Of a DNA stretch of 64,000 nt, positions 3,142-25,021 are shown piece after piece; positions within the stretch are counted from its first letter, which is position 1; each line of letters begins with the position of its first letter. The notes beneath the pieces were generated by a model, which was given only the letters and a program-made list of their open reading frames with translations, was not told the origin of the DNA and made no database searches. Location of the stretch: contig NZ_JACIEE010000003.1 of assembly GCF_014196765.1 (NCBI RefSeq), positions 434,001 to 498,000 of the forward strand. Direction: 5' to 3'. This stretch comes from Mycoplana azooxidifex. GTDB taxonomy: Bacteria > Pseudomonadota > Alphaproteobacteria > Rhizobiales > Rhizobiaceae. A program made the translations under genes and the position numbers.

Positions 3142-3287
3142 GGCAAGTTTCTATCAGATTCCGGCGGACGCGCTGGCCTTTTGCCGGAATTTAAGGTAGT
3201 TGCGGCCCGATCCCGCTTTCCGGCGGCCCGGGGATGGCGCTTGCTGCGTCCTGTACGACGCGGCCGCTCCAGATACAAGGAAGACTT

Positions 3288-8797: not shown

Positions 8798-9673
8798 ATG
8801 TCGCCAAACGAACGATCATTCCGCCTCTCGCTTGTGGTCGCCACGCTCGGCCGCTCGGACGAACTGGCGCGGCTGCTGTGCTCGCTCGCAGCACAGACGG
8901 TTTCGGACTTCGAGGTCATCATCGTCGACCAGAACGGCGACGACCGCGTCCTGGGCCCGATCGCGCAGCATGCCCAGAGCCTCGAGATCGTCCACGTCAG
9001 GACGCCGAAGAAGGGCGTCTGCCGTGCCCGCAACCTCGGCGCCTCCATGGCGCGCGGCGAATGGCTGATGTTTCCGGACGACGACTGCTGGTATCCGGAA
9101 AACCTGCTGGAGCGCTACCGGCGCGTCATGGAGACCGCGCCCGCCGATTTCCATTGCGGCCGCGCCACCAATGCGGCGGGACAGACGATCATGGGCACGT
9201 TCGAGACCCGACCGGTGCGGATCCGGCGCGACAACGTCTGGACGACGCTGATCGAATGGATGCTGACGGTGCGAAAGGGCGACTTCACGGCCGCCGGTGG
9301 ATTCGACGAGAGAATCGGGCCGGGCTCGGGTACGCCATGGGGCGCCTACGAGGTGCAGGACTTCGTGCTGACGCTCCTGGAGCGCGGCCTGGCGGGCCGA
9401 TACGATCCGATGCTCGCGGGGCACCATCCCGAGGACATGACCGACCAGACCGTTCCGGCGAACATCGCAAAGATCCGCTGCTACAGCGCCGGCCTCGGCT
9501 ATGTGATGCGCAAGCACGGCTTCGGCCTCTCCGGCTTCCTGCCGCGCCTCCTGCGGCCGCTCGCGGGAATGAGCGTTTACGCCCTGACCGGTCGTCCGGC
9601 GATGGCGCGACGATCGCAGCAGATCCTGATCGGCCGCTGGGACGGCTGGCGACAGGCGGCCGGGACGGCCTGA
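8798..9673 (+). CDS. Glycosyltransferase family 2
   Basis: GT-A type glycosyltransferase of 291 residues. It starts with the nucleotide-sugar fold SLVVATLGRSDELARLL, then VIIVDQNGDDR, and has a DXD-like metal site in MFPDDDCWYPENLL at about residues 90-100. The final 40 residues are basic and hydrophobic and may lie on the membrane. As the first plus-strand gene of the polysaccharide locus it probably transfers one sugar to an undecaprenyl-linked repeat unit; donor and acceptor cannot be read from sequence. An AGGA ribosome-binding site precedes the ATG. Confidence 0.88.
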   Translation: MSPNERSFRLSLVVATLGRSDELARLLCSLAAQTVSDFEVIIVDQNGDDRVLGPIAQHAQSLEIVHVRTPKKGVCRARNLGASMARGEWLMFPDDDCWYPENLLERYRRVMETAPADFHCGRATNAAGQTIMGTFETRPVRIRRDNVWTTLIEWMLTVRKGDFTAAGGFDERIGPGSGTPWGAYEVQDFVLTLLERGLAGRYDPMLAGHHPEDMTDQTVPANIAKIRCYSAGLGYVMRKHGFGLSGFLPRLLRPLAGMSVYALTGRPAMARRSQQILIGRWDGWRQAAGTA

Positions 9674-9786: not shown

Positions 9787-11322
9787 ATGAAGAGCAGCAT
9801 CATGTCGAATTCGATCATGAACGCGGCAGCGGGGATGCTGCTGCTCGTGACCGGATTCGTCTCTTCCATCGCGATTGCCCGCCTGCTCGGCCCCGAAGCG
9901 AACGGGACCATAGCCTTTGCGCTCTGGGTGGCTGCGACCGGCGCCCTGGTGGCCGAACTCGGCACCGGCGTCATCCTGATGCGCTGCCTTCCCCAGTTGA
10001 GGGCGCGGGGGCTCGGCGTGCGCGAGCGGCGCGGCTTTGCCGCCTACCTGGCGCTCCCGGTGCTCGTCTCGACCGTTCTTCTCGTCATCCTCTACGGCTC
10101 GGCCTCCTGGGAGGCGGAGCACGAAGGGGTGATCGGCACGCCCCAGGGCATCGTCGTCCTGACCGGGCTGCTCCTGTGCGTCCAGTCGATCGGCGCTCTG
10201 TCGAAGAACTACCTGGTGGGCGAACAGCGACTGGGCGCGTTCTTCCGCATCACGGTGATCTCTTCCCTGCTGCAACTGGCGCTCGTCATTGGCGGAGCGA
10301 TCGGGTTCGGCGTGGAAGGCGCGCTTGTCGGCTACATTGCCGGACAGCTGGCCCCGTTCGCCTTTGCGTTCGGCATCCTCGTCACGCCGCGCAGCAACGG
10401 CGGCTACAGCGCCAGGACGCTCGCGACATCGTCGGCGGTGCTGTTTATCGAGTTCGTGCTGAGCGCCGTCTTCCTGAACCGGGCGGAGCTGTTCTTCCTG
10501 CAGCAGTTTCGAAGCATCGAGGAAGTGGGCTTCTATGCCGTCGCGCTGTCGCTTGCCAATCTGGCGCTGCAGCTTCCCGTGCAACTGACCGGCAGCCTGA
10601 TGCCGTTCTACGTCGAGCATCGGGAGAGCGCCGAGGGCATGCTCCCGCCGGGCCTGTTCGCCGCCGTCATGCGCAGCTTCGCCTATATCACCTTCCCGCT
10701 CTGTTTCGGCCTGGCCGCCATTTCCCAGCCGCTCGTCGTTGCGATCTACGGCGAGAGCTTCGCGCCCAGCGGCGTGATCGTGGCGATCCTCGCGGTCGGC
10801 TCGCCGGCCTTCGTCTTCATGCAACTGACCACGCAGTATCTCTACTCGATGGACCGCGTCGGCATCCGGCTCCTGACGACCGGGATCGGCGCCGTGCTGA
10901 TGGTCGCCGGATGCCTCGCGGCCGTTCCCTTCTTCGGCGGACCGGGTGCTGCGATCGTGCGCGGCTGCGTCTTTCTGACGATCGGCTGCATCCTTCTCGC
11001 CAGCATGCGCGGTGTCGACATGACGGCGTCGCTCGCAATCACGGTTGCCAAGGTCGCCGGTTCGGCCGCAGCCTGCGGGCTCGCAGCATTCGCAATCGCA
11101 GGCACGATGCCGGGCGTCGCCGGGCTTGCAGCGGCGATCCTCGCCGGGGCGCTGACCTACGCCCTCTGCCTGCGCCTGACCCAGGCGGTGCCGGAGGTCG
11201 ATGCACGGACCATCGATGCGCTGCTTTCCCGCCTTCCCCGTCGCTATGGCCCGACGCTACAGCGTGCCCTGTCGCTGATTGCGCCCTTTTCCGCGGCCGA
11301 TGCCCGGGTGCCTGCGGAGTGA
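9787..11322 (+). CDS. Polysaccharide flippase, Wzx-like (MOP/MATE superfamily)
   Basis: Integral membrane protein of about 511 residues with roughly twelve to fourteen hydrophobic helices, beginning with IMNAAAGMLLLVTGFVSSIA and the family-typical ARLLGPEANGTIAFALW. Wzx proteins flip undecaprenyl-pyrophosphate-linked repeat units to the periplasm. The start is uncertain: ATG at 9787 is used, GTG at 9751 and ATG at 9802 are in frame and no Shine-Dalgarno sequence is decisive. The stop lies 5 bp before the next ATG and overlaps an in-frame GTG (11319), so the hydrolase downstream is probably translationally coupled. Confidence 0.88.
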   Translation: MKSSIMSNSIMNAAAGMLLLVTGFVSSIAIARLLGPEANGTIAFALWVAATGALVAELGTGVILMRCLPQLRARGLGVRERRGFAAYLALPVLVSTVLLVILYGSASWEAEHEGVIGTPQGIVVLTGLLLCVQSIGALSKNYLVGEQRLGAFFRITVISSLLQLALVIGGAIGFGVEGALVGYIAGQLAPFAFAFGILVTPRSNGGYSARTLATSSAVLFIEFVLSAVFLNRAELFFLQQFRSIEEVGFYAVALSLANLALQLPVQLTGSLMPFYVEHRESAEGMLPPGLFAAVMRSFAYITFPLCFGLAAISQPLVVAIYGESFAPSGVIVAILAVGSPAFVFMQLTTQYLYSMDRVGIRLLTTGIGAVLMVAGCLAAVPFFGGPGAAIVRGCVFLTIGCILLASMRGVDMTASLAITVAKVAGSAAACGLAAFAIAGTMPGVAGLAAAILAGALTYALCLRLTQAVPEVDARTIDALLSRLPRRYGPTLQRALSLIAPFSAADARVPAE

Positions 11323-11327
11323 CGACC

Positions 11328-13130
11328 ATGCTACGGACAAACGATCTTCCGGTTGACGCCGCCGCCGGCAGAGGCGCCCCCTGGACGCCGGGATCGGCGG
11401 CGCTGCCCGTTTGCATTGAGAGGACCGTGGGCCTCTTCACGCCGTCGATGACGGGCACGACGCCGTCCGACTGCGCCGTGCTCTTCCTCAGCCCATGGGG
11501 CTTCGAGGAGATGTGCACGCGCAAGCTCTGGCGGGACCTGGCCGAACGGTTCGCGGGCCTCGGGGTTGCGAGCCTGCGCTTCGATTATCCCGGCACGGGC
11601 GACTCGCTCGACCATATGGAATTTTCCGGCGGCCTTCCGGTATGGGAAAAAGCGACCGAGGCCGCAGCGACCGAACTGCGCCGCCTTTCCGGCACGACAC
11701 GGCTGATCCTGGTGGGTCACGGGCTGGGAGCGACGTTTTCGATCCTTTTTGGGCGGCAGCTCGGGGCGGTCGAGGGAATGGTGCTGATGGCACCGGTGGT
11801 CAGCGGGCGCTCCTATCTGCGCGAACTTTCCGCCTGGTCGAAGATGGTGGACGACGGCCTCGGGCTTGCCGAGGAACAGCGTCTCACCGGGAAGACGTCG
11901 ATAGCAGGCCTCGTCATGCCGGAGGACGTGGCAGCCGCTGTGCGCAAGATCAATCTGCAGGCCACGGATGCCGCTCCGGCCGGGTCGATCCTGATGGTCC
12001 ACAGGCCTGCCCGGGACAACGAGGCAGCCCTCGCCGCGCGGCTGGAAGAGCTGGGAGCCATCATCAGCCGTCAACCCTATCTCGGCTACGACGAACTCGT
12101 CTCCAACCCCACCATCGCGACCCAGCCCGAGGCAGTCGCAAGCCGGGTCACCGAATGGGTCGGAGCGCTGGCGGCCGCGGCCGGACCTGCGAGCGGGCCG
12201 CAGTCGTCGCCGTTCCCGGCAGTTCTGAAGGGTGACGACTTTTTCGAGGAGCCGCTGCGGTTCGGGCCGAACAGCCGGCTGTCCGGCGTCGTCTGCATGC
12301 CGGCCGGCGCGCGGCGCGGCGCATCCGTCATCCTGCTCGGCACCGCCTACGACCGGCACGCCGGATGGGCGCGCTCGACCGTCGATACGGCACGGTGCCT
12401 TGCGCTGCAGGGCATTGCGTCCCTCCGGTTCGACGCCGCCAATGTCGGCGACAGCCCGCCGGTGGACGGCGCGGCGGGACAGGTCCTCTTTTCCGAAGGG
12501 CAGAGGGACGACGTGCGCTCCGCCTTCGACCTGATGGCCGAGCGGCAGCTTTCACCGGCTGTCCTTGCCGGGCGATGCAGCGGTGCCTACCTCGCCTTCC
12601 AGAGCGCCATCGACGAGCCACGCTGCAGCGGTGTCGTCGCCATCAACCCCTTCACCTTCGTCTGGGACCGGGATGAAGGCGTCGATGAGGCACTGCGGTA
12701 CAATCCACGCTCGCTCGGCGACTATCGCAAGCGGGCGTTAAGTCTGGACACGTTGCGTCGGCTGGCTTCCGGCCAGATCAATCTCGGGCGTGCGGCGGTC
12801 AACATCGGCAAGCAGCTCGGCCGTAGGGCCGCCTTGATGGCACCGGGCCTGCTGGGGCGCCTGTCGAAGTACGGCCGGCTGCGGCATGCCGTGCTTTCCG
12901 CCTTCCGCGCGCTTGCGGAACGGCGCACACCGGTGCGGCTGATCTACAGCGGCACCGACGTGGGGCTGGAGCGCTACCACGCCTATTTCGGGGCCGATGG
13001 GTCCGGCATGACGGCATTTGCGAATGTCACGGTCGAGATCGTCCCGGATGCCGACCACAACATGTCGCCACCCTCAGCCAAGGCTCTCGTGCAAAGGCGA
13101 ATCGTCGAGGCGGCGCTCGCCGCCGACTGA
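11328..13130 (+). CDS. Tandem alpha/beta-hydrolase protein of the polysaccharide locus
   Basis: A 600-residue protein built of two alpha/beta-hydrolase domains. Domain 1 (about 25-270) has the oxyanion block LFLSPWGFEEMCTRKLW and SLRFDYPGTGDS, but its nucleophile elbow reads G130-H-G-L-G134, so the usual Ser is Gly. Domain 2 (about 300-600) repeats the pattern (ILLGTAYDRHAGWARS, SLRFDAANVGDS) and its elbow is G415-R-C-S-G419, placing Cys417 at the nucleophile position; an Asp (YSGTDVGLE) and a His (DADHNMSP) complete a possible Cys-Asp-His triad. I recall GLCDG-type elbows in exosortase-associated hydrolases, which also work with extracellular polysaccharides. A longer frame open from 9732 runs through the flippase gene out of frame and is rejected. 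The role may be acyl transfer or removal on the glycan or on the carrier-bound amino acid; this is inference. Confidence 0.82.
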   Translation: MLRTNDLPVDAAAGRGAPWTPGSAALPVCIERTVGLFTPSMTGTTPSDCAVLFLSPWGFEEMCTRKLWRDLAERFAGLGVASLRFDYPGTGDSLDHMEFSGGLPVWEKATEAAATELRRLSGTTRLILVGHGLGATFSILFGRQLGAVEGMVLMAPVVSGRSYLRELSAWSKMVDDGLGLAEEQRLTGKTSIAGLVMPEDVAAAVRKINLQATDAAPAGSILMVHRPARDNEAALAARLEELGAIISRQPYLGYDELVSNPTIATQPEAVASRVTEWVGALAAAAGPASGPQSSPFPAVLKGDDFFEEPLRFGPNSRLSGVVCMPAGARRGASVILLGTAYDRHAGWARSTVDTARCLALQGIASLRFDAANVGDSPPVDGAAGQVLFSEGQRDDVRSAFDLMAERQLSPAVLAGRCSGAYLAFQSAIDEPRCSGVVAINPFTFVWDRDEGVDEALRYNPRSLGDYRKRALSLDTLRRLASGQINLGRAAVNIGKQLGRRAALMAPGLLGRLSKYGRLRHAVLSAFRALAERRTPVRLIYSGTDVGLERYHAYFGADGSGMTAFANVTVEIVPDADHNMSPPSAKALVQRRIVEAALAAD

Positions 13131-13177: not shown

Positions 13178-15643
13178 TCAGAAGGAAACCGCAGCAGGCA
13201 GGTTCAGCGCGGACAGTTCTCCGCCGGGGCGTTCCACGGCGCCCGTCCGCACCAGCCGGATGACGCGCTCCCCGCCGGGGGAAAGATGGAACCAGTTGTC
13301 CGAGGGCAGGAAGCCCGGGCAATCGATGTGGGCCGACTGCAGCAGCCGGTCCGCCCCGACCCGCAGCTGCCAGCCGCCCTCCGCCTCTTCCAGCGCGACG
13401 GTCGCCGTTGCCGGATGAAGGGCGCGCGCACGGCCTTGCGGGAAATGGAAGGCTTCAGCGACGATCGCCGGACTGTCACCTTCCCGCAAGGTCACGATGG
13501 TCACGTCGTGGGCGGGCGGGCCGAAGCGGAAGGCATAGGTCGTGTCGAAGAAGGCGCCGAAGAGATCGGTGGCGGCGAAGGTGGCGGCACCGCGGGCCGC
13601 AAGCGTCAGGGCGCGCCGCCCGGTGACGACGGGCTGGCGGCCGTCGCGCAGGCAGGTGAGTTCGACGGTCAGTTCGCGTCCGCCATCCGTCTCGTTGATC
13701 ACGTGCACGTCGAGGCCGTTGGTGCCCTCGTCGGACAGCAGCACCTGGAGCGGGCGGAAGGCTCGGCGCAGCGCGTGCCAGGCCGGCTTCGGCAGGCCGG
13801 TGGCATCGACGACGCCCCAGCCCGCGCCGGGCATGAGGTCCTGAAGCGTCCAGACGAGCGCGCCGTTGGAGGTCGATTGCGGCCGCCGCCATTCGGAATA
13901 GGTCGTCTCCATGACCTCGCCGCTGACGGCGCGGGAGAAATCGAGGTAGCGGAGAGGGTCCTCGCGACGCAGGCGTGCAGGATCGCAATCGTAGAGCAGG
14001 CCGAGATAGTGGTCGCGCACGTCCTCGAAATCCCAGGAGGCGCCGCGGTCGCGCGGGACCCGTGCCTTCCAGCGCGGGTCGTGCACGGCGGGGACGGGAA
14101 GATGCGCCTCGAGCGTCGCCTGCTCCGGCACGTTGGCAAATGCCAGAGATTCGGCTGCGAAGCGCACGCCGGCCCGGCGCGCGTCCTCGAGCGGCCGGCA
14201 ATAGGCGCCGACGCCATAGTAGTGCGCGACGCCGGCATTGGGGGAAAACGGCATGGCGCCGCCGAAGGGCGAGTTTGGGACGAACGGGACGTCGGGACGC
14301 AGCGCCCGTACAGCCTCGGGCAGGACCATATCCGTCAGCGGCCCGCTCCAGGCGGCAGCCGGCAGGCCCAGCATCGCCGCCTGCTGGAACACCTCGCTGC
14401 CGCCGCACAGGACGGCCAGCGAGGGCGAGGCGGCCGTGCGCTGCAGGAGCTGTTCGACCTCGGTTCGCAGCAAGGCGACGAAGTCTTCGTCGGCCGCCGG
14501 ATAGTCGAAGTTCGCCAGCATGACGTCCTGCCAGACGAGAATGCCGAGCTCGTCGCACAGGTCGAAGAAGGCCTTGGTCTCGTAGGCCATGGTGCCGCCG
14601 ATGCGCAGCATGTTCATGCCGGCCCCGGCCGCAAGCCGCAAAGTCGGCTCGTAGCCCCCTCGCGTACCCGGCAGGTCGACGATGTCGGCATTCGTCCAGA
14701 CTGCGCCACGGCAGAAGACCGGGACACCGTTCACCTGCAAGGCGAAACCGCTGCCGTCCACGCCGGTGTCGATTTCAATCCGGCGGAATCCGGTGCGGCC
14801 GAGCGCATGGCTCTCGCCGTCCAGCTCGACCTCGACCGCATGCAGCACCGGCCGGCCATGGGTGTGCGGCCACCAGGCCGCGACGTCGAGGATGGAGAGG
14901 GCGCCGTTCCATCGGCCGTCGGCACCGCGCTCCATGGGAACCGTGATACCGGCGCAGCGCAGGACGGCGGTGCGTGTGCCATCGCCGGCCAGAAACGAAA
15001 CGGCAAGATGCCCGGTGTCGTCCGGCGCCAGTGTGGCCGCCATGCGGATGTCCCGCGGCTTGCCCGGCTGCGGCCGCACGAGGCGGACGGGGCGGTAAGG
15101 GCCGACCGCATGCACGGAAGGACACCATCCCGGCATCCGGCCGAGCAGGGTGGTGCGCGTGAGCCGCACGCCTTGCGGAACGATCATCTGCGGGCGCCAG
15201 CGGGCGCGCGGGCCGCGTCGCTCGAGATGGGGGGCGAGCGCGCGAAAACAGACCGCCAGACGGTCCCTGCCGGTGACATGCACGTCGATCTCGTGAGCCA
15301 CGAACATCGAGCGGGAGGAAAGTCGGAGCTCGCCGTTCCAGTAGACGTCTGCGATCGTCGCCAGGCCATCGAGGGTGAGCACGGCAGGACCCGGCTTTTC
15401 GCCGGAGAGATCGAGCAGGTACCACGCATCGTATCCGTCGAGCGGCATCGGATCGTCGCGGTCGAAGCGTCCCGCGCGTTCCAGCACGCCCGCGACCGTC
15501 CCCGGCACCGGCGCATCCAGCATTTCGATATCGGACCCGATCATGGAGGGGTCGGAGCACGCGCCGGCCGTGGTGAGGCACAGCTTCCAGCCCCTCTCCA
15601 GTTCCACGATGTGCGGGGACGTGCCTTCAGCCAGTTCGCTCAT
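13178..15643 (-). CDS. Glycoside hydrolase family 2 protein, beta-mannosidase-like
   Basis: A protein of 821 residues: N-terminal jelly-roll sugar-binding domain (DAWYLLDLSG, DVYWNGEL), immunoglobulin-like domain, TIM barrel and C-terminal beta domains. The acid/base is probably Glu in LCGGSEVFQQ (near residue 415) and the nucleophile Glu in FAAESLAFAN (near 497); both blocks diverge from the canonical beta-mannosidase SGNNE and SEFG. No signal peptide is seen, so it may act in the cytoplasm. It is the last gene of the carrier-protein operon, 13 bp after DUF1839. Exact linkage specificity is unknown. Confidence 0.85.
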   Translation of the reverse strand: MSELAEGTSPHIVELERGWKLCLTTAGACSDPSMIGSDIEMLDAPVPGTVAGVLERAGRFDRDDPMPLDGYDAWYLLDLSGEKPGPAVLTLDGLATIADVYWNGELRLSSRSMFVAHEIDVHVTGRDRLAVCFRALAPHLERRGPRARWRPQMIVPQGVRLTRTTLLGRMPGWCPSVHAVGPYRPVRLVRPQPGKPRDIRMAATLAPDDTGHLAVSFLAGDGTRTAVLRCAGITVPMERGADGRWNGALSILDVAAWWPHTHGRPVLHAVEVELDGESHALGRTGFRRIEIDTGVDGSGFALQVNGVPVFCRGAVWTNADIVDLPGTRGGYEPTLRLAAGAGMNMLRIGGTMAYETKAFFDLCDELGILVWQDVMLANFDYPAADEDFVALLRTEVEQLLQRTAASPSLAVLCGGSEVFQQAAMLGLPAAAWSGPLTDMVLPEAVRALRPDVPFVPNSPFGGAMPFSPNAGVAHYYGVGAYCRPLEDARRAGVRFAAESLAFANVPEQATLEAHLPVPAVHDPRWKARVPRDRGASWDFEDVRDHYLGLLYDCDPARLRREDPLRYLDFSRAVSGEVMETTYSEWRRPQSTSNGALVWTLQDLMPGAGWGVVDATGLPKPAWHALRRAFRPLQVLLSDEGTNGLDVHVINETDGGRELTVELTCLRDGRQPVVTGRRALTLAARGAATFAATDLFGAFFDTTYAFRFGPPAHDVTIVTLREGDSPAIVAEAFHFPQGRARALHPATATVALEEAEGGWQLRVGADRLLQSAHIDCPGFLPSDNWFHLSPGGERVIRLVRTGAVERPGGELSALNLPAAVSF

Positions 15644-15656
15644 GCGCCCTCTGGCC

Positions 15657-16631
15657 TCAGTCGATGCGGCGTTCGAGCACGGCTATCATCTCGTCCCAGG
15701 CCGAAACTGCCGGGTCGAGCGCGGTCGCTAGGGGCTCGAAGCGCTTGCGGGTGACCGCGCGGGCGAGCTGGAACTGCACCGACTTGGCGTTCTCGGCGAT
15801 GCGACGCGCGGCTGCCGCCGCATCCGACAGCGTGCCGTCCGGGGCTATCCAGTCGAGATGGCTGGCCGCGAGCTCGAAATTGGCGCCCAACTGGCGCAGC
15901 GTGTTGAAGGCATATTTGTGGAAGAAGCCGAAGGGGCGTTCCGCAACGGCCTCGACCTGGCCGGGAAAGACGGCGACGAAGGCGGCAACGGGGTTTTCCA
16001 GCGGCCGACGCTGCAGATGGAAGCGCAGCAGGCGACGGGCGGCCCTTGCCATGTCGGCTTCGGCCGGGTGCGCGGCGGGGAATTTCGCAAATTCCGTATA
16101 GGGCAGGAACGGCAACGTATCGGTCGGCGCGTCGAGCTGGAACAGCCCGTCGAAATCCTCGCCTTCCAGCCTGAAGAAGCCGGCATTGTGGAAGTAGTCG
16201 AGCGTGCGGTTCGCAAGGTCCAGCCGGTTGATCGCCACCGTCGTCTTGCCGTGCTCCAACCGGTAGGCGACGCCACGCGTATCGGGCATGTAGAAACTGT
16301 CCATCTCCACCAGGCACAGGCGGCCGCGGCCGATCTGCTCGGCGACGTGGCGCTCGACGCGGTCGTAGATCGCAAGCTCGGTGCAGCGGATGCCGTAGAG
16401 GACTTCGAGATCCTCGAGCGGCACCTTGAAAAAGGTGAACTGGTCGCCCTCGAAGTCCTGCGTGAGCGTGAAGCTCAGCATGGCCTCCGGCGGCAGCGCC
16501 CGTGCGTTCAGCACCTCGATCCAAAGGTCGACGTAGCAGTTTGTCTCCGGCCACATGCGCTCGTGGTCGTGCAGCGCGTGCGGCCGGTATGTGGCGGGAT
16601 CGAGCCCGGGAAAGACGGAAGCCGTGCCCAA
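15657..16631 (-). CDS. DUF1839 family protein
   Basis: Protein of 324 residues assigned to DUF1839, a family of unknown function usually found next to amino acid:[carrier protein] ligases. Typical blocks are VFPGLDPATYRPHALHDHER near the N-terminus, NCYVDLWIEVL, and FTFFKVPLEDLEVLYGIRC. No known catalytic motif is evident. The start is a TTG at 16631, two bases after the ligase stop; the first ATG in frame would cut into the conserved N-terminal block. A much longer open frame continues upstream to 17255 but that part is antisense noise over the ligase gene. Position suggests a partner in using the loaded aminoacyl carrier protein, perhaps as an aminoacyl transferase. Confidence 0.85.
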   Translation of the reverse strand: MGTASVFPGLDPATYRPHALHDHERMWPETNCYVDLWIEVLNARALPPEAMLSFTLTQDFEGDQFTFFKVPLEDLEVLYGIRCTELAIYDRVERHVAEQIGRGRLCLVEMDSFYMPDTRGVAYRLEHGKTTVAINRLDLANRTLDYFHNAGFFRLEGEDFDGLFQLDAPTDTLPFLPYTEFAKFPAAHPAEADMARAARRLLRFHLQRRPLENPVAAFVAVFPGQVEAVAERPFGFFHKYAFNTLRQLGANFELAASHLDWIAPDGTLSDAAAAARRIAENAKSVQFQLARAVTRKRFEPLATALDPAVSAWDEMIAVLERRID

Positions 16632-16633
16632 AG

Positions 16634-17545
16634 TCAGCCCCAGAGGGTCTTGCGGACGCTCTCCGGCCAGTCGGCGACGTCGAGGCCATGGGTGTGGAAC
16701 AAGGCGAGTGCGATGCGCTCCAGGCCGAAGCCAACGCAGGCGGTGTGCGCCACGCTGCCGTCTTCCATGTTCAGGCCCCATTTCGAGCCGAACGCATCCT
16801 GATGATAGTTGAAGCTCATGCAGGCGGTCGGCTTTGAGACCGAGGTGATCGGGATCAGCAGCTCGAACTTGAGATCCTGGTCGCGCTGGTTGTTGGCCAG
16901 CATCTTGCCAGCGCGGCCGAAGAAGGGATCGTTGGCGACGTCGATCGTGACCTCGAGGCCGACCTCCTTCATCATCGCCACGCCGCGATCCATCCAGGAC
17001 TGGCGGAAATCGGTGACATGCTTCTCCGTGCCCATGCAGACATATTCGCGCATGCGGAACAGCTGCTGGCGCGCCGGATCCTGCGACGGCTCGTGGCGGA
17101 AGCAGTAGGACTGCAGGTCGTAGAGCGCGCCCTTTGCCGGGATCGGCCCACGTCTGGCAACGGTCGGATAGAGCGGGTAGCAGGCGGCCGGCGTCAGGAC
17201 GATATCCGTCGCCTTCTGATCCCTGGTCCAGTCCTCCTCGCCCACTTCCATGCACCTGAGCAGGCTCATGTGGTCGAGCTCGTTGCCGCAGAAGGAATGG
17301 ACGGTGCCCGCGAGCTGCGGGAAGCTCTTCATGTAGCCGCTCTTCTCGAAGAAGGCGCGGTTCATGCCCGGCGGGAAGCGCATCGCTTCGGCGCCGTCGC
17401 CACCGCCGACGCGGTCGATCAGTCGCTCGAAGGCCGCAATCACGTCCTCGAACTGGCCGCTGCGGCCATAGAGACCGTCAACGCCGGTATCGATCAGCAG
17501 ACCGGCATCGAACAGCCGGTCGAGAAACGAGGTCTGCATATCCAT
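16634..17545 (-). CDS. Amino acid:[carrier protein] ligase (class II synthetase homologue)
   Basis: A 303-residue catalytic core like that of atypical, zinc-dependent seryl-tRNA synthetases, without the tRNA-binding arm. Motif 2 is [11 protein letters not shown] (residues 147-157) and motif 3 is [13 protein letters not shown] (271-283). Cys122, Glu167 and Cys270 are spaced 45 and 103 residues apart, the spacing I recall for the zinc ligands (Cys131, Glu176, Cys279) of the Bradyrhizobium glycine:CP ligase. Such enzymes adenylate a small amino acid (glycine or alanine in the characterised cases) and load it on the phosphopantetheine arm of a dedicated carrier protein instead of tRNA. That carrier is encoded two genes upstream. 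The gap to the preceding dehydrogenase gene is 6 bp. Which amino acid is used here is unknown. Confidence 0.93.
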
Positions 17546-17551
17546 GGTTCT

Positions 17552-18724
17552 TCACCCCAGGAGACTGGTGTCCTGCTTGTGGACAAGCAGGAGATTGGAC
17601 GTGTTGCCGAGAATGCGGTCGTTGGAAATCATCAGTTGGGCCGAATGCGCGTCGCGCAGGTGCCGGCCGAGGCTGTAGGGCGTGCCGTTCTTGTAGCCCA
17701 TGATGCCGCAGATCAGCATGGCGTGGTTGATGATCGTCAGGATCGTCTCGGACGAGCCGATCTTCAGATTGTTCATGGCGACGGCGAAGCCCATCGACGA
17801 CAGCCGGTCGGCATCCGCCTTCGCCGCCTCGAATTCGTTCAGGCCCGCGACCACGTTCGACTTCAGGATCTGCAGAAGGTTCGAGGCTTCGGCCAGGCGA
17901 AGGGCTCCGGGCGGCGTCTGGCCGGGCGCCTTGCGGGCCGCGGCGCGGACGAAGGCCTGCGCCCGCGCCATTGCATTGGCGGCGATGCCGTACCAGACGG
18001 CACTCCAGAGAAGATGCGAGGTGGCGAGCATCGACTGGGCGGCGATCTCGGCAAAAGGCTTGGGCAGGATCTGCTCGGCCGGCGCCCGGCCCTTGAACAG
18101 ATAGCCGTCGGAGCACGTGCCGCGCATGCCGAGCGTATCCCAGACATGGGTGCGCTCCAGCGTGTACTGATCCCTGGTGAACACCGTCATGACCTGATCG
18201 GTGGAGGCGGCCTCGGCATGGCTGCGCGAGGTGATCAGGATCGCGTCCGCGTTCGCGCCGTAGGAGATGACGGTCGCGTCCTTCTCGAGCCGGCAGCGAT
18301 CACCCTCGACCTCGATGGCGCAGATGCTGTTGCGCAGGTTGCCGCCGATGCCGCCTTCCGTCGTGGCGGAAGCCAGAAGCAGCTGTTCGTCGGCGATGCG
18401 GCGCATGAAGGCGCTGTGCCAGGCGACATCCGCGCCATGCGAGACGAGGCTCGACGCCTTGATCTGGTGCATGGCGAAAACCATGGCTGCGGCGGCGCAG
18501 GACTGGCCCAAAATGGAGCAGACCTCGGCGATCTCGGCGATGTTCGCCCCTTCGCCACCGAGTTCCTTAGCGATCTGGATGGACAGCAGGCGTTCGGCGC
18601 GCATGGCGTCCACCGCCTCCTGCGGGAAGCGTCCCTTCACGTCGACATCGCCGGCGTGCGCCTCGGCCACGGCGGCAACGCGGGCGGCTCTCTCCGCCAG
18701 GCTTGCGCCGGTGGACATGTTCAT
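17552..18724 (-). CDS. Acyl-CoA dehydrogenase-like flavoprotein
   Basis: A 390-residue protein with the three-part acyl-CoA dehydrogenase fold: alpha domain (GRFPQEAVDAMRAERLL, LGGEGANIAEIAEVCSILG), beta domain (WDTLGMRGTCSDGYLF) and C-terminal alpha domain (ICGIMGYKNGTPYSLGRHLR). Its start overlaps the carrier-protein stop by ATGA and the ligase gene follows after 6 bp. By analogy with flavoproteins that oxidise prolyl-S-carrier proteins in pyrrole pathways, it may act on an aminoacyl thioester and not on acyl-CoA; this is inference from context. A general acyl-CoA dehydrogenase role is the alternative. Confidence 0.9.
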   Translation of the reverse strand: MNMSTGASLAERAARVAAVAEAHAGDVDVKGRFPQEAVDAMRAERLLSIQIAKELGGEGANIAEIAEVCSILGQSCAAAAMVFAMHQIKASSLVSHGADVAWHSAFMRRIADEQLLLASATTEGGIGGNLRNSICAIEVEGDRCRLEKDATVISYGANADAILITSRSHAEAASTDQVMTVFTRDQYTLERTHVWDTLGMRGTCSDGYLFKGRAPAEQILPKPFAEIAAQSMLATSHLLWSAVWYGIAANAMARAQAFVRAAARKAPGQTPPGALRLAEASNLLQILKSNVVAGLNEFEAAKADADRLSSMGFAVAMNNLKIGSSETILTIINHAMLICGIMGYKNGTPYSLGRHLRDAHSAQLMISNDRILGNTSNLLLVHKQDTSLLG

Positions 18725-18975
18725 TCGGCAGCCTCCGCATTGCCGGTCAGGCTCTCGACCGTGCGGGTGATGGCCGCGATGCTCTGGAACGACTTGCGGT
18801 TGAGCAGATTGTCCGGAAACTCCAGGTCGAAGGCTTCCTCGATCGCCAGCATGATCTGGACCGAGGCGAAGGACGACAGGCCGGCCGCGTAGAGGTCCTG
18901 GTCGTCGACGATCTGGTCGACGGCGACCGGCAGGCCGCCATGCTTGGCAAGCAACTCACGGATCTTCTGCTTCAT
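18721..18975 (-). CDS. Acyl carrier protein, partner of the amino acid:[carrier protein] ligase
   Basis: An 84-residue four-helix carrier protein. The phosphopantetheine site is AAGLSSFASVQIM with Ser35 in the position of the Ser of the usual DSL motif. Helix 3 (MLAIEEAFDLEFPDNLLN) is acidic as expected. It differs from fatty-acid AcpP, which has GADSLDTVE and is normally next to fabF. A GGGAGAG ribosome-binding site lies just upstream. It is the first gene of the minus-strand operon carrier protein - dehydrogenase - ligase - DUF1839 - GH2 and overlaps the second by 4 bp. Confidence 0.93.
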   Translation of the reverse strand: MKQKIRELLAKHGGLPVAVDQIVDDQDLYAAGLSSFASVQIMLAIEEAFDLEFPDNLLNRKSFQSIAAITRTVESLTGNAEAAE

Positions 18976-19359: not shown

Positions 19360-21381
19360 ATGGACATCGACATTTTTCAGCTGCCGGGCATCGTGAGGAA
19401 GAGGATCCACTATGTGGTCCTCGCTGCGATGGTGTGCGCGCTGCTGGGCATGGGCTTCGTCCTCACCCAGAAGCCGTTCTACCGCTCGACCGTGGAGATC
19501 TTCGTCGACATCGGGGCGGGGCCTGTCGTCGGCACCGATACGGGCGGATCTCTCAACATGCAGCAGGTGATCGGCAGCCAGATCTACCTGATCCAGTCCC
19601 GCGACGTGCTGCGCGACGTCGTCACCAGGCTCGACCTCACCAGGGACCCCTATTTCAACGGCAGCGGCCTGCTGTCCAGGCTGCTGGGACGGACGAAGAC
19701 GGACGCTGCGACTGTCGACGGCGTCATCAATGCCCTGCTCGAAAACCTGAGCGTCGCGCGCAACGGCGACAGCTTCGTCTTCACCATCACCGTCAAGCAC
19801 GGCAACAGCGAGATGGCCGCGAAGATCGCCAATGCCATCGCCGAAAGCTACCTCACCGTGGCCGACAAGGCCCGCCTGGACGTCAGCTTGAAGACCACCC
19901 GCACGATCGCCGAACAGGCGGAGGAGCTGCGCCAGCGCGTGCTCGACGCCCAGGAGGCGGTGGAGGATTTCCGGGCCGAGAACGGCATGATCAGCGCCGG
20001 CGACCAGGGGCTGATCACCGACCAGCAACTCGCCGGCCTGAACCAGCAGCTTCTGGCAGCGCGCCAGCAGGTCGAGCAACAGAAGACGGCCTACGAGCAG
20101 GCGCGCCAGCTCAACGTGTCCAATGTCGAGGCCGGCGCCATACCCGAAACGCTGAACTCCGGCGCGCTCTCCGGACTGCGCAGCCGCTATTCGCAAGCGC
20201 TCGACCGCCAGGCGGAACTTGCAGCCAACCTCGGCAACGACCATCCGCAGATGCGTGCCATCCGCTCGCAGATCGCCAGCATCCGCAATGCCATCGAGAT
20301 CGAGCTCGAGCGCATTCGTCAGCTGTCGGCCAACACCTATGAGCGCACCAGGGCAAACCTCGTCTCGCTGGAAAAACGCTTCGACGACCAGGCGGCCTCG
20401 AGCAAGGACAACGGCAAGCTCCGCTTCCAACTGGTGCAGCTGACCAGCGAGGCCCAGGCGATCGACGCGGTCTACAAGGCATTTCTCACCCGCGCGGAGG
20501 AACTGAGCCGTCAGCAGGATCTCGGCAACGGCAATTCCCGCGTCATCTCCGAAGCCGTCCCGTCCGACAAGGCGGTGCAGGCGCCGAAGCTTCTCGTGCT
20601 GATCGCCGCGGTCCTGTTCGGCTCGGCCGCCGGGGCGACCCTTGCGGTGCTGCGCGAACTCCTGGGCGGTACCAAGCGCATGGAACGAAGCCTCGTAGCC
20701 AAGACCAGCGCTCCAATGCTCGCGGTCATGGCAGGCAACGCGCCATCGCCATCCGGGCGCATCGACAGCTTCACGCGCCGACTGCCGTTCGCACGGCCAT
20801 CCGCCCCGGAAGCCTTGCCGCGAGAGGCGGGGATCCGCAGGCTGGGCCAGTTGCTCGAGGCGGAATTCGGCGCCACCCGTCCCGCCACCATCGCATTCCT
20901 GTCTCCCGACGGCAGCGGCCGGGACGGCGTCGCCGCGGACGTGGCGCGCGAGCTGCATGTCGCCGGCGAGGTCGTACTCTTCTGCGACGGCGAACTCCGC
21001 CCCAGGGACCATTCCGCCGCACGGCCGTCCTGGAGCGTCAAGATCCGCCTCGACGCCGGCGCGCCGCGCGGCCATGCGCTGGAGGATGTCCTGCACTTCG
21101 AGCGTATCGGCGCCGGCGGCCTGAGACGGATCGCAGCGCTTGGATCCTCCCGTGTCAGCACCGCGCCGCGGACCGAACCCGTCGATTTCACCGTCGTCGA
21201 TTGCAGCGGCACGCCGGCCGAAACCGTGATCCCCACCGTCCTCAAGCACACCGACGCCGTCATCATCGTCTCGACCGTCGGCGCCACCGGCGGCGATGCA
21301 CTCGACACGCTGATGGCGGAAATCGGCCCGTGGCGCGACAAGATCCTCGGCAACGTCCTCCTGTCCCGCAGGGCGCCATAG
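19360..21381 (+). CDS. Polysaccharide co-polymerase (Wzz/Wzc-like) with degenerate ATPase domain
   Basis: Protein of 673 residues. Residues 1-45 hold a cytoplasmic tip and first membrane helix (VVLAAMVCALLGMGFVL); then a Wzz periplasmic domain with a long coiled coil (about 180-370, rich in Gln, Arg and Glu); then a second membrane helix (LLVLIAAVLFGSAAGATLAV, near 415). The C-terminal 170 residues resemble a tyrosine-kinase type P-loop domain, but the Walker A segment reads SPDGSGRDGVAADVA with Arg-Asp where Lys-Thr/Ser is needed, and no Tyr-rich tail follows. It should control chain length and form part of the export complex without being an active kinase. ATG at 19360 is chosen over GTG at 19291. 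The next gene starts 12 bp downstream. Confidence 0.88.
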   Translation: MDIDIFQLPGIVRKRIHYVVLAAMVCALLGMGFVLTQKPFYRSTVEIFVDIGAGPVVGTDTGGSLNMQQVIGSQIYLIQSRDVLRDVVTRLDLTRDPYFNGSGLLSRLLGRTKTDAATVDGVINALLENLSVARNGDSFVFTITVKHGNSEMAAKIANAIAESYLTVADKARLDVSLKTTRTIAEQAEELRQRVLDAQEAVEDFRAENGMISAGDQGLITDQQLAGLNQQLLAARQQVEQQKTAYEQARQLNVSNVEAGAIPETLNSGALSGLRSRYSQALDRQAELAANLGNDHPQMRAIRSQIASIRNAIEIELERIRQLSANTYERTRANLVSLEKRFDDQAASSKDNGKLRFQLVQLTSEAQAIDAVYKAFLTRAEELSRQQDLGNGNSRVISEAVPSDKAVQAPKLLVLIAAVLFGSAAGATLAVLRELLGGTKRMERSLVAKTSAPMLAVMAGNAPSPSGRIDSFTRRLPFARPSAPEALPREAGIRRLGQLLEAEFGATRPATIAFLSPDGSGRDGVAADVARELHVAGEVVLFCDGELRPRDHSAARPSWSVKIRLDAGAPRGHALEDVLHFERIGAGGLRRIAALGSSRVSTAPRTEPVDFTVVDCSGTPAETVIPTVLKHTDAVIIVSTVGATGGDALDTLMAEIGPWRDKILGNVLLSRRAP

Positions 21382-21393
21382 GAGACGTCGAGG

Positions 21394-22698
21394 ATGGCCC
21401 GCACGGAATCGATCGGCTACGGGACGGGCTTCAGCAACCGGCGGAGCCGGAGCACCCCACAGGTGCGCCACGATGCCGGCGCTCCGGCCAGGATCGATCC
21501 CGTGCGCGTCGCCGCGATCGTGACGGTGATCGGCGGCCTCGTGTTCAACGCGCTCCTCTGCCTGGTCAACACGCGTTTCATGGGCATGGCCGATCGCCAC
21601 GTCATCATGTCGGAGCTTGCGATCGTCGGCTGCGCATTCCTCGCGGCCATGACGCGAAAGTCCACGCTCTACGTGATCCTGGGCGTGTTCGTCAGCTACA
21701 TGCTGTTTTTGTTCATGCTGCGCGGGCAGGTGAACCCGAAGGCGGTCCGCGACATCCTCATCCCGCTGACCTTCTATTTCATGGCTGTGCGCATCGCCGA
21801 TGCGAGGCTCGCCGACAAGCTCGTGATGGCAAGCGGCCTGATCGTCGTCGGCTTCGGGCTGTTCGAGTATCTCTTCCTGGAAACCTTCCTCGAGTATTTC
21901 AACGTCATCGGCTACTACCTTGCGCGCGGCACCGTGACGCTCGACCAGGTGTTCGGGCAGACCAAGGGCCTGTTCGTTTCCGGCCAGCGCCCCGAGGCAC
22001 GAACGATCCTGCCCTTCCTCGGCCAGCATCGCGTCTCCTCGGTCTTCCTGGAGCCGGTCTCGATGGGCAATTTCGCCGTGATCATCTATTCCTGGGCGCT
22101 CTATCGCGGTCGCGCCTTTCCGGGCCGGTGGCTGGTCTTTGCGCTCGCCTTCACCGTGATCGCGATGGCCGACGCGCGCTTCGGGCTCTACAGCTGCGTG
22201 CTGATCACGCTTCTCTATCCCGTCTATTCCTTCCTGCCGCGGCTGGTCTGGGTGGTCCTGCCCTTCTTCCTGCTGGCCGTCCTGTCTGTCTACGGCATCA
22301 CCTCGGTTTCCGGCGGGGGGCCGAACGACCTCGCCGGACGGTTTGCAGTCACCGCACACATCCTCACACAGCTCGACCTGGGTGTTGTGCTCGGCGCGGA
22401 GACGACCGACGCGTTCACCGCCGATTCCGGCATTTCCTATTCGCTGACCGCCTTCGGGATCTTCGGCTTCATCGGGCTGTGGACGATGTTCGTGCACGCG
22501 CCACTGAAGGACGCGGGGGCCTGGCGCTTCCATTCGATGATGATCGTCTACCTGCTGCTTCTGATGCTGATCAGCGACTCGTTCTATTCGATCAAGACGG
22601 CTGCCCTGATGTGGTTCCTGGTCGGCACGGCCGGCGCCTGCCGGCAAACGGTCGTTGCTCAACGGCCGTTCGCCCCGGCCCTGCCACATCGCGCGTAA
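21394..22698 (+). CDS. Wzy-like polysaccharide polymerase / O-antigen ligase-like membrane protein
   Basis: Integral membrane protein of 434 residues with about ten to eleven hydrophobic segments (for example IVTVIGGLVFNALLCLV, WVVLPFFLLAVLSVYGI) and a central periplasmic loop containing LGQHRVSSVFLEPVSMGNFA, the sort of loop seen in Wzy and WaaL proteins. With the flippase and the Wzz-like protein it completes a Wzx/Wzy pathway; I favour polymerase, but Wzy and ligases cannot be told apart safely by sequence. It follows the wzz-like gene by 12 bp and converges on the GH5 gene with a 6-bp gap. Confidence 0.78.
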   Translation: MARTESIGYGTGFSNRRSRSTPQVRHDAGAPARIDPVRVAAIVTVIGGLVFNALLCLVNTRFMGMADRHVIMSELAIVGCAFLAAMTRKSTLYVILGVFVSYMLFLFMLRGQVNPKAVRDILIPLTFYFMAVRIADARLADKLVMASGLIVVGFGLFEYLFLETFLEYFNVIGYYLARGTVTLDQVFGQTKGLFVSGQRPEARTILPFLGQHRVSSVFLEPVSMGNFAVIIYSWALYRGRAFPGRWLVFALAFTVIAMADARFGLYSCVLITLLYPVYSFLPRLVWVVLPFFLLAVLSVYGITSVSGGGPNDLAGRFAVTAHILTQLDLGVVLGAETTDAFTADSGISYSLTAFGIFGFIGLWTMFVHAPLKDAGAWRFHSMMIVYLLLLMLISDSFYSIKTAALMWFLVGTAGACRQTVVAQRPFAPALPHRA

Positions 22699-22704
22699 CG
22701 TTTC

Positions 22705-23748
22705 CTATTCGGCTTCGCCGAGCGCCGGGCAGGCGCCCTTCGGCGCCGGGATGCTGCCGCCATATTCGAGGGCGCGCAGCTGTGGCCGGTCGCCTCCCTT
22801 GGTCGGCTGGATGTTGAGCGCCTCGGTTTCCGGCCACCAGTCGCCGGCCGCCCAGTAGGTCCAGCCGGTCCACACGTCCGGGGCGCCGTCGACGACGGCG
22901 GTCATGCGCGACAGGGCCGTCAGGCATTCGGTCCTGGCGGGCGCGCCGAATTCCCCGAGAAAACCACGCTTGCCGTTCTCGCGCAGCCAGGCCGTGAAGC
23001 GCTCGAGCGCAGCGACGGCATCCGCCGCACCCTCGCAGGTGTCGTGCGTGCCGGAGAAATCGTCGTCCAGGTACTGGTGGACCTCGTAGGCGTAGTTCTT
23101 CGCCGGATCCTCGACGCCCAGCATCACGCCGGCGTTCGAGCCGCCGGGACGCTCGCTTTCCCAGCTATGGGCGCCGGTCCAGATCGTTCCGGGGACATAG
23201 ACGAGATTTTCGGCCCCTGCACCTCGGATCGCGGCGATGGCGGCGTTGGCGGCGACCAGCCATTGGTCGGCCGCAATGTCGTGAGGCTCGTTCATCAGGC
23301 CGAACTGCACCGCCGGATCGTTTGCGAACTCGGTGGCAAGCCGCCGCCAGAAGTCGGCGAAGGCCTCCACGGGGACCGAGGCAGAACCGATCTGCCTGCC
23401 GCCGTGATAGGCATAGTTGTGCGGATCGAGAACCACCGTGAAGCCCGCCGCCTTCAGGCGCTTGACGGTGTCGGCGAGACGCCGGCGCTCGCCCATCGCA
23501 AACGCCCGGCCGAGCCTCGGCTGAAGCCGCTCCCAGCGGAAGGGCAGCCGTGCACCGTTGAACCCCTTGCCGGCGAAGTACCGGATCGTCTCATCGCTCG
23601 GATAGATGTAGTCCTTGCCGTAGACGCCCGGCGGATCGCCGAACTCGGCGCCGGCAAGGTTGACGCCACGCATGCAAGCGGCAGACGCGTCGAAAGGAAG
23701 GACCAGCGCCAGCGCGAGCCCGCCGATCCGCATCGCCCTGCGCCTCAT
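22705..23748 (-). CDS. Secreted glycoside hydrolase family 5 (cellulase-like endoglycanase)
   Basis: 347 residues with an N-terminal signal peptide (MRIGGLALALVLPFDASA) and a GH5 barrel. The acid/base Glu is in QFGLMNEPHDI and the nucleophile Glu in RGFLGEFGAPA, both the canonical GH5 blocks; VNLAGAEFG and GARLPFRWERL are typical of endo-beta-1,4-glucanases. A periplasmic glycanase in a Wzy-type locus commonly trims or edits the polymer. The frame is open up to 23892, overlapping the upstream glycosyltransferase gene, but the ATG at 23748 has a GGGAG site before it and leaves a clean signal peptide. It is 40 bp downstream of the GT4 gene in the same operon. Confidence 0.9.
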   Translation of the reverse strand: MRRRAMRIGGLALALVLPFDASAACMRGVNLAGAEFGDPPGVYGKDYIYPSDETIRYFAGKGFNGARLPFRWERLQPRLGRAFAMGERRRLADTVKRLKAAGFTVVLDPHNYAYHGGRQIGSASVPVEAFADFWRRLATEFANDPAVQFGLMNEPHDIAADQWLVAANAAIAAIRGAGAENLVYVPGTIWTGAHSWESERPGGSNAGVMLGVEDPAKNYAYEVHQYLDDDFSGTHDTCEGAADAVAALERFTAWLRENGKRGFLGEFGAPARTECLTALSRMTAVVDGAPDVWTGWTYWAAGDWWPETEALNIQPTKGGDRPQLRALEYGGSIPAPKGACPALGEAE

Positions 23749-23788: not shown

Positions 23789-25021
23789 TCAGCCGTTGGC
23801 TGCGACTTCATTGCCTTCACTGCCCTTTGCCGTCGCCGGATCCCATTCGGGCGGTGCGACGCCTCCCAATATCTCAGTATAGATCGCGGCATAGCGCCGG
23901 GCCACGTGATCCCAGGAATAGCCTTCCGCCGCGCGCATCGCCCTTGCCCGGTAGCCGGGCACGTCGCGGGCGAGCGTCAGGAACGCCGAGTGGATCGTCC
24001 CTGCCGCCGCGTCCGCGTCCTCGAAGTCGCAAAGGCGCACCTCCGGATGCTTGGCAGCGAGGTCCTCGTAGGCCTGGTTCGGATGCAGCAGTGGCAGAAG
24101 CCCCGCGCTCATCGCCTCGACGGCAACGAGGCCGAAGCCCTCATATTCCGAGGCGGAGGCAAACAGCGAGCATCCGGAAACCAGCTCGCGGATCTGTTCG
24201 TTAGACAGGCCGACATGCACGTCGATATGGTCCTCGAGCGCCCGCTGACCGATCATCCGCTGCAGCTCCGCCTCGCTCAGTTCGCCCGGCACGCCCACTA
24301 CCGAAAGGCGCCAGTCCGGCTCGTGCACGACGAGGCGCGACAGGGCGTCGAAGAGGCGGTCGAGCCGCTTGTTGGAGGAGAAGCGCCCGATCGTGACGAT
24401 GCGGCGAAGCGGCTTCGTGGCACCCGCATTGCGGAACTTGGCAATATCGGCGCCGTTATCGACCTCGACGACGCGACGGCCGGCGATCTTGCGGAACAGC
24501 CTAGCATCCTGCGCGCTGCAGGCGATCAGCCGGCGGTAGGCGAGCGCCGACAGGCGGGTCGTCACGTTGAACCAGGCGAGCTTGATCGCCTTGTGCCTGT
24601 CGGTATGGAAGAACCCGCCATGGGTCGTGGCGACGAGCGGCTTTCCATGCAGGAACTTGCCCCAGGCGAGCGCGTCGAAGAAGAAGTCGATCGCATGGAC
24701 GTGCACCAGGTCGGCATCCTTCAGGTGCCGGAAAACGCTCGGTGCGAAAGGATATCGGGTGCTGCCCGAAAAGGGAATCCGGACCACCTCGATTCCGTCG
24801 ACGGTTTCGCGTGCGGGAAGCGTGCGGTCGGGGGCGGTGAAGAGGCGATCGAGCGTCACCACGCGGACGCGGTAGCCGCGCGCGCAAAGCTGGCGCGACA
24901 GATTGGCGACGACGTCCTCCAGCCCGCCGCGGCTCGGCGAAAACTGGCGCACGACCTGCACGGCCAGCGGCGCACGCTTGCCGGGATCGATGGAAAGACT
25001 GCCTTGCGATAATGCGTCCAT
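23789..25021 (-). CDS. Glycosyltransferase family 4 (GT-B)
   Basis: A 410-residue GT-B enzyme. The N-terminal domain carries VVRQFSPSRGGLEDVVANLS and a HAIDFFFDALAW segment; the C-terminal nucleotide-sugar domain has TIGRFSSNKRLDRLFDAL and the retaining-enzyme block SASEYEGFGLVAVEAMSAG with the conserved E-X7-E. It should add a sugar to the lipid-linked repeat unit in the cytoplasm. It is the first gene of the pair with the GH5 enzyme. About 200 bp without a gene lie between its start and the polA stop, enough for its promoter. Confidence 0.9.
   Translation of the reverse strand: MDALSQGSLSIDPGKRAPLAVQVVRQFSPSRGGLEDVVANLSRQLCARGYRVRVVTLDRLFTAPDRTLPARETVDGIEVVRIPFSGSTRYPFAPSVFRHLKDADLVHVHAIDFFFDALAWGKFLHGKPLVATTHGGFFHTDRHKAIKLAWFNVTTRLSALAYRRLIACSAQDARLFRKIAGRRVVEVDNGADIAKFRNAGATKPLRRIVTIGRFSSNKRLDRLFDALSRLVVHEPDWRLSVVGVPGELSEAELQRMIGQRALEDHIDVHVGLSNEQIRELVSGCSLFASASEYEGFGLVAVEAMSAGLLPLLHPNQAYEDLAAKHPEVRLCDFEDADAAAGTIHSAFLTLARDVPGYRARAMRAAEGYSWDHVARRYAAIYTEILGGVAPPEWDPATAKGSEGNEVAANG

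Follow-up and report, generated by a model that had tools for sequence, protein, structure and literature searches.

A conserved amino acid:[carrier protein] ligase operon with a papain-like DUF1839 protein, proposed to decorate a Wzx/Wzy polysaccharide in Mycoplana azooxidifex and relatives

We analyzed a 64,000-nucleotide stretch of the Mycoplana azooxidifex genome, here called the window (NCBI RefSeq assembly GCF_014196765.1, contig NZ_JACIEE010000003.1, positions 434,001 to 498,000), in which five genes encoding a carrier protein, a flavoprotein, an amino acid:[carrier protein] ligase, a DUF1839 protein, and a GH2 glycosidase lie among genes for polysaccharide assembly. An earlier reading of the sequence alone (the original prediction) held that this operon attaches an aminoacyl or oxidized imino-acyl group to an exopolysaccharide, with the flavoprotein and DUF1839 as tailoring and transfer steps. 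That interpretation is partly supported by the comparison described here, which strengthens and extends it but does not prove it. Beyond the original prediction, the analysis yielded a fold link for DUF1839, a tandem hydrolase that constantly accompanies the operon, and distant copies of that hydrolase in polysaccharide loci (six of six examined, of 14).

RESULTS

Five open genes form a compact minus-strand operon

The operon spans 13178-18975 on the minus strand and contains, in order:

18721-18975, minus strand, aminoacyl carrier protein (CP), 84 amino acids, Atu2571-like (Pfam PP-binding)
17552-18724, minus strand, acyl-CoA-dehydrogenase-fold flavoprotein, 390 amino acids (Pfam Acyl-CoA_dh N and C domains)
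16634-17545, minus strand, amino acid:[carrier protein] ligase, 303 amino acids (NF005479, 517 bits; cut-off, 357)
15657-16631, minus strand, DUF1839, papain-like Cys protein, proposed carrier-dependent aminoacyl transferase (PF08893, 448 bits)
13178-15643, minus strand, GH2 beta-mannosidase-like protein (Pfam Glyco_hydro_2_N2; beta-mannosidases in the Protein Data Bank [PDB])

All five reading frames are open, and the Pfam and NCBIfam families, the gene order, and the spacing agree with what had been claimed from the sequence: from CP to GH2, a 4-bp overlap is followed by gaps of 6, 2, and 13 bp. DUF1839 starts with TTG at 16631, 2 bp past the ligase stop; its residues are numbered here from 16637, and 2 is to be subtracted for numbering from the TTG. 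The window's genome holds one copy of a ligase of the NF005479 type. The five-gene set is not a chance arrangement: its gene order is repeated across nine families of the order.

The cassette is widespread and distinct from a second ligase layout

We surveyed 397 genomes from the order and, separately, 398 from the phylum; 40 random regions from 40 cassette-bearing (type A, defined below) genomes served as controls for gene neighborhoods. DUF1839 was found in 65 of the 397 genomes and the ligase in 95, of which 88 scored above the curated cut-off; every one of the 65 DUF1839 genomes also holds an above-cut-off ligase. In these 65 genomes (type A), CP, flavoprotein, ligase, DUF1839, and GH2 run in one direction, GH2 being found in 64, with the exception of a locus for which only 4 kb was retrieved. 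A further 23 genomes (type B) carry the flavoprotein and ligase; 21 of them have a divergent carrier gene, and in the other 2 no carrier gene was found. Neither DUF1839 nor GH2 was found in the type B stretches. Trees of the ligase (support, 0.86-0.88) and of the flavoprotein (1.0) both split type A from type B. Type C comprises five of the seven genomes with below-cut-off ligases (G029 and G032 were left out), and at these five loci no carrier or flavoprotein gene adjoins the ligase. Residue conservation was counted after a coverage filter that retained 63/65 DUF1839, 87/88 flavoprotein, 62/64 GH2, 85/86 carrier, and 93/93 ligase sequences.

Two other neighborhoods were recorded in the survey. 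Type B loci (L084, L109, L113, and others) share a conserved protein of ~291 amino acids that has no Pfam match (17/23 versus 0/40 controls), and homoserine succinyltransferase-like and cupin genes also occur there. Loci L119-L123 hold distant ligase relatives (~150-164 bits) that lack an adjoining carrier or flavoprotein gene, some of which share other conserved neighbors (clusters c59 and c60).

DUF1839 was also present in 16 of the 398 genomes of the phylum sample. Four of these belong to a family outside the order, and two of the four carry two DUF1839 copies each. Plasmid records with DUF1839 (59 in total) came from Rhizobium, Shinella, Phyllobacterium, Azospirillum, Methylobacterium, Mycetohabitans, Caballeronia, Cupriavidus, and Burkholderia. 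Among the matches listed, the five genes were complete in 78 of 80 named loci; the exceptions were a short contig lacking the carrier and flavoprotein and one locus without GH2. Three loci (L244, L248, and L259), from the Cupriavidus metallidurans CH34 megaplasmid and from the family outside the order, have an additional and divergent DUF1839 copy close to Wzz and hydrolase genes, perhaps reflecting two acceptors. On a Rhizobium leguminosarum plasmid (L262, 12935-14608), the GH2 gene looks broken: the match is short (open frame of ~1.1 kb) and overlaps an IS5-family transposase gene.

Polysaccharide genes surround the operon in the window and in many relatives

The genes flanking the operon in the window are as follows:

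8834-9673, plus strand, family 2 glycosyltransferase (Pfam Glycos_transf_2)
9787-11322, plus strand, Wzx-like flippase (Pfam Polysacc_synt_3)
11319-13130, plus strand, tandem alpha/beta-hydrolase (TIGR03100 and TIGR03101, both below cut-off)
19360-21381, plus strand, Wzz/GumC-like chain-length protein (Pfam Wzz and GNVR)
21394-22698, plus strand, presumed Wzy polymerase (from its place after wzz; no Pfam or NCBIfam match)
22705-23733, minus strand, GH5 glycosidase (Pfam Cellulase, 167 bits)
23789-24961, minus strand, GT4-like glycosyltransferase (named by eye from the sequence)

The flanks described earlier were thus recovered for the flippase, hydrolase, and Wzz-like genes, Wzy being only presumed. 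On a Shinella plasmid, the neighbor of GumC has been annotated as O-antigen ligase family, and a profile of the window's presumed Wzy gave no match to it.

To map this association, profiles for 12 glycan genes were searched within ~10 kb of each locus, some type A loci spanning less than 20 kb owing to contig ends. At least one glycan gene was found at 47/65 type A loci, 10/23 type B loci, and 5/40 controls, and at least two at 42/65, 2/23, and 0/40, respectively (type A versus controls, Fisher P ~6 × 10−13, relatedness uncorrected). For assembly or export genes (Wzx, Wzy, Wzz, WecG, or Bac_transf), the counts were 43/65 type A loci, 9/23 type B loci, and 0/40 controls. Relatives of the window's GH5 and GT4-like genes also recurred near the cassette (15/65 versus 0/40 controls and 43/65 versus 3/40, respectively). 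The polysaccharide link is real and strong when mapped across relatives: of the cassette genera, 16 of 24 have at least one glycan gene and 13 of 24 an assembly or export gene, compared to 4 and 0, respectively, of 17 control genera, and a glycan gene lies near the cassette in 44 of the 80 named loci among the matches listed. Wide separation of the operon from glycan genes, which would have undercut the original prediction had it prevailed in most relatives, was seen in a large minority. All four cassette loci of the family outside the order have Bac_transf, Wzz, or glycosyltransferase genes next to the cassette, and at a fifth locus a second DUF1839 copy sits beside Wzz and the tandem hydrolase. 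The Mycetohabitans plasmid locus has ArnT-like and lipoteichoic acid (LTA)-synthase-like genes nearby.

Elsewhere in the window (1001-3857), genes for a lysine-2,3-aminomutase-like protein, a lysyl-tRNA-synthetase-like protein (EpmA-type), and elongation factor P (EF-P) were recognized by eye. The EpmA-type gene is a second tRNA-synthetase paralogue in the window and is apparently unrelated to the operon.

A tandem hydrolase accompanies the cassette in all 65 cassette genomes of the order sample

The hydrolase next to the operon (start at GTG 11319 or ATG 11328) is a constant partner of the cassette that the original prediction did not remark upon. Within ~10 kb it was found at 42/65 type A loci, 0/23 type B loci, and 0/40 controls. 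We then searched 58 whole genomes: 26 type A (23 without a local copy and 3 with a Wzx-fused copy), 23 type B, and 9 cassette-free members of the window's family, two small-genome members having been left out. A strong match (at least 200 bits over most of the protein) was present in all 26 type A genomes, which brings the hydrolase to 65 of 65 cassette genomes (local in 42, elsewhere in the genome in 23). A full-length match was found in none of the 32 others (0/23 type B and 0/9 cassette-free), three type B genomes giving partial matches only, of at most 79 bits. The hydrolase and Wzx are fused in one open frame at 3/93 and 21/85 loci (22 distinct after removal of duplicates).

Read from coordinates, 9 of the 23 nonlocal copies lie at ~9-16 kb from the ligase, and 14 lie farther away or on another contig. 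The six examined of these 14 all sit with Wzx, Wzy, Wzz, WecG, or glycosyltransferase genes; at one (L264), WecG and an acyltransferase were confirmed by Pfam, and at another (L269), the Wzx match was weak (41 bits) and the Wzz match strong. On two Azospirillum plasmids and one Mycetohabitans plasmid, the hydrolase follows GH2 with a 4-bp overlap, and on a Caballeronia plasmid it was not found within 12 kb of the cassette.

At the nucleophile position, the first hydrolase domain lacks a Ser. The second carries a G-x-C-x-G motif with Cys417 in 93/93 sequences and D544 and H577 in 92/93; a Cys nucleophile there would suit an acyl-enzyme intermediate. Both domains are distantly related to exosortase-A-associated hydrolases. 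An exosortase A system was rejected: an exosortase was found in 1 of the 23 genomes checked (20 type A and 3 type B) and not in the window's own genome.

DUF1839 is predicted to share the fold of carrier-dependent natural-product enzymes

Invariant residues in the 63 DUF1839 sequences include C34, H129, H150, T32, N33, T132, T133, and D113. In the AlphaFold model (mean predicted local distance difference test [pLDDT], 92.3), C34 lies at a helix start. A Foldseek search of this model against the PDB returned 253 chains at E ≤ 10 and 18 at E ≤ 0.001. All 18 of the latter were AziU2-U3, CtaG, or CcbD (TM, 0.52-0.62; 324-360 aligned columns), and peptidases scored at E > 0.02; a search of a viral library with the same model returned nothing at E < 1 × 10−3.

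CcbD makes an amide by a Cys-His-Glu ping-pong mechanism: carrier-bound proline is loaded on the Cys and given to the amino group of a thiooctose, and carrier binding involves Arg312, Arg316, Gln319, Arg323, and Arg324, near the C terminus (PMC12945683). The next-to-last helix of DUF1839 bears K285, Q288, and R293 in 63/63 sequences and R297 in 57/63, a row that may be comparable, by analogy, to these carrier-binding residues. According to a 2023 survey, DUF1839 belongs to the papain-like superfamily, with its triad in the order C(T/S)H, and is guessed from context to process glycans in an acyl-CoA-dependent manner (PMC10318531). Membership in BtrH_N (PF14399), another candidate assignment, was unsupported, as only 2 of the 63 DUF1839 members match (best E, 0.064). 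The fold lends independent support to DUF1839 as the proposed transfer step.

The ligase and its carrier appear to match, and the flavoprotein lacks the usual catalytic base

As first claimed, the class II core and zinc-ligand residues of the ligase are intact. Among 93 ligases, C122, E167, and C270 each show at least 97% conservation; allowing for a 20-residue tag, they correspond to the zinc ligands Cys131, Glu176, and Cys279 of Bll0957. Residues 8-301 align to PDB entry 4h2w, which covers the class II core without a tRNA-binding domain. The best PDB matches of the ligase were 4h2w and 3mey, and an 11-residue segment is common to the ligase and the 4h2w chain and absent from 3mey. The carrier, whose candidate phosphopantetheine site Ser35 is present in 85/85 aligned sequences, matched 4h2w_C and 2jq4 ("Atu2571") at E ~2 × 10−29, compared to just 8 × 10−4 for 4h2s_C ("Aminoacyl carrier protein 1"). 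Since the carrier matches Atu2571/4h2w_C best and the ligase shares the 4h2w segment, the two look like a matched pair. Atu2573 reportedly uses glycine. A review table gives Gly, Ala (and Ser) as substrates of such ligases (PMC9437257).

Alignment of the flavoprotein to dehydrogenases places Ile366 at the position of the usual catalytic Glu in 87/87 sequences. In acyl-CoA dehydrogenases, this Glu sits in a YEGT-type motif, and a classical acyl-CoA dehydrogenase function was therefore rejected. The flavoprotein model matches TdsC first and then a mixture of dehydrogenases, TdsC/DszC monooxygenases, and nitrososynthases; its fold, like its sequence, is compatible with monooxygenation as well as with a different oxidation. 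The GH2 protein retains E417 and E498 in 62/62 sequences and Ser416 in 61/62; the two Glu residues are the candidate catalytic residues, and Ser416 replaces the usual Asn before the presumed acid/base.

DISCUSSION

What we observed is a conserved gene set, a hydrolase that is inherited along with it and in some species is fused to the flippase, and the predicted fold of DUF1839; every chemical step that follows is one that we infer from them. The ligase would activate a small amino acid, most likely glycine, and load it onto the phosphopantetheine arm of the carrier, as reported for relatives. The flavoprotein would then oxidize the carrier-bound aminoacyl group otherwise than by classical alpha,beta-dehydrogenation, a reaction that is impossible on glycine because glycine has no beta carbon. 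The Cys of DUF1839 may take up the group and transfer it to an amino sugar of the lipid-linked repeat unit, or of a precursor of that unit, where an amide would form with the sugar's amine, as in the CcbD reaction of celesticetin synthesis; this step is suggested by the fold and the invariant residues. GH2 and the Cys-bearing tandem hydrolase could edit or complete the decorated unit, which is the weakest part of the scheme, and Wzx and Wzy would export and polymerize it. Taken together, we judge aminoacyl-type decoration of a Wzx/Wzy polysaccharide via DUF1839 to be moderately probable.

Several observations weigh against this interpretation. DUF1839 shares 12-16% identity with its fold matches, one of which, AziU2-U3, is not known to be an aminosugar acylase. 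An hhalign comparison of DUF1839 with seven BtrH_N proteins was not significant (2% probability; E, 0.02), and the placement of the DUF1839 His is unusual relative to the C(T/S)H order given in the survey (PMC10318531). Most of the seed sequences for the glycan markers came from cassette loci, a bias in favor of those loci in the counts. No glycan marker was found within ~10 kb in 8 of 24 type A genera (g3, g5, g17, g33, g93, g108, g121, and g134) or near 36 of the 80 named loci among the matches listed, many of them from Rhizobium tropici relatives, and no Wzx/Wzy cluster lay within 12 kb of the Azospirillum, Mycetohabitans, Caballeronia, and Phyllobacterium plasmid loci. GH2, finally, has no obvious job in the pathway.

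An alternative product is a small natural product, such as an amino acid-aminosugar or amide conjugate, whose genes would adjoin polysaccharide genes only through a shared exporter or shared regulation. Some plasmid copies of the cassette stand alone, and the enzymes closest to DUF1839 in fold act in pathways for small-molecule antibiotics. This holds for AziU2-U3 and CtaG as well as for CcbD, the last as described in PMC12945683. The type B trio, moreover, occurs with metabolic genes: an AMP-ligase in 12/23 loci (controls, 6/40), a Cys/Met pyridoxal phosphate (PLP) enzyme in 9/23 (0/40), and a thiamine pyrophosphate (TPP) enzyme in 8/23 (1/40); it probably serves a different small-molecule pathway. 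For the cassette, however, this explanation must account for a hydrolase that is present in all 65 genomes, occurs as a Wzx fusion at 22 distinct loci, and lies in polysaccharide loci in all six distant cases examined, and we regard it as a serious but rather improbable alternative.

If a glycan is the acceptor, it could be another one of the envelope (O-antigen, lipid A, or a peptidoglycan precursor) rather than a Wzx/Wzy exopolysaccharide. The carrier weakly resembles DltC (26.5 bits; cut-off, 68), the neighboring glycan genes could serve O-antigen, and the cassette also occurs away from glycan genes; the tie to a hydrolase-marked locus with Wzx, Wzz, WecG, or Bac_transf argues the other way, although it does not tell which polymer is made there, and we consider this acceptor unlikely. 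We think it slightly less likely still that DUF1839 is a hydrolase recycling mischarged carrier, the output of the pathway being made without it. The papain-like superfamily is mostly known for hydrolases (PMC10318531), but the fold matches of DUF1839 are natural-product enzymes, with peptidases at E > 0.02.

Returning to decoration of a Wzx/Wzy polysaccharide, a more specific and less probable version can be put forward as speculation: the ligase, the base-lacking flavoprotein, and a papain-like amide synthase might attach glycine in an oxidized form (as a glyoxylyl, imino, or N-hydroxy group) to the amino sugars of a secreted polymer, where such reactive groups could cross-link or bind metal or surfaces. 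If true, polymers would be aminoacylated by a separate route that is widespread among alpha- and betaproteobacteria, including many plant-, insect-, or fungus-associated ones.

Among the papers that literature searches listed, none links these ligases to a polysaccharide in its title or abstract. If the interpretation is right, it would give a biological role to a tRNA-synthetase-like ligase family of hitherto unexplained purpose, and it makes a concrete, testable proposal: the acceptor class is an amino sugar of a hydrolase-marked Wzx/Wzy polymer, the transferase is DUF1839, and the marker gene is the tandem hydrolase. DUF1839 would thereby be given a specific reaction, which goes beyond the guess of acyl-CoA-dependent glycan processing in the published survey (PMC10318531).

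Comparison with known systems

The closest parallels for DUF1839 are enzymes of natural-product pathways. CtaG (closthioamide) and AziU2-U3 (azinomycin) are its best fold matches, and both belong to small-molecule pathways and catalyze other reactions. The lincosamide condensation enzymes CcbD/LmbD resemble it in predicted fold over the whole length and in being Cys based and, by analogy, may share its proposed carrier dependence and amine acceptor on a sugar; they differ in sequence (12-13% identity), in His placement, and in serving an antibiotic pathway without a polysaccharide. BtrH, the butirosin acyl carrier protein (ACP):aminoglycoside acyltransferase, is papain-like and moves a carrier-bound acyl group to an aminoglycoside (PMC10318531).

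The tandem hydrolase resembles the exosortase-A-associated hydrolases 1 and 2 (TIGR03100 and TIGR03101) in its two domains but falls below the cut-offs of both families and carries the domains in tandem. The ligase belongs to the same family as Bll0957/Atu2573, and the cassette shares with that system an Atu2571-type carrier; work by Mocibob from 2010 and 2013 reportedly paired these ligases with the carriers Blr0959/Atu2571, and to our knowledge published work on them goes no further than charging of the carrier. Type B loci, which we take to have the Bll0957 layout, differ from the cassette in their divergent carrier gene and in having no DUF1839, GH2, or hydrolase nearby. The proposed pathway is most like DltABCD in its overall logic, an amino acid being placed on a carrier and then on an envelope polymer. 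DltABCD, however, D-alanylates teichoic acids, with an unrelated ligase and transferase, a Gram-positive polymer, and an ester in place of the amide proposed here.

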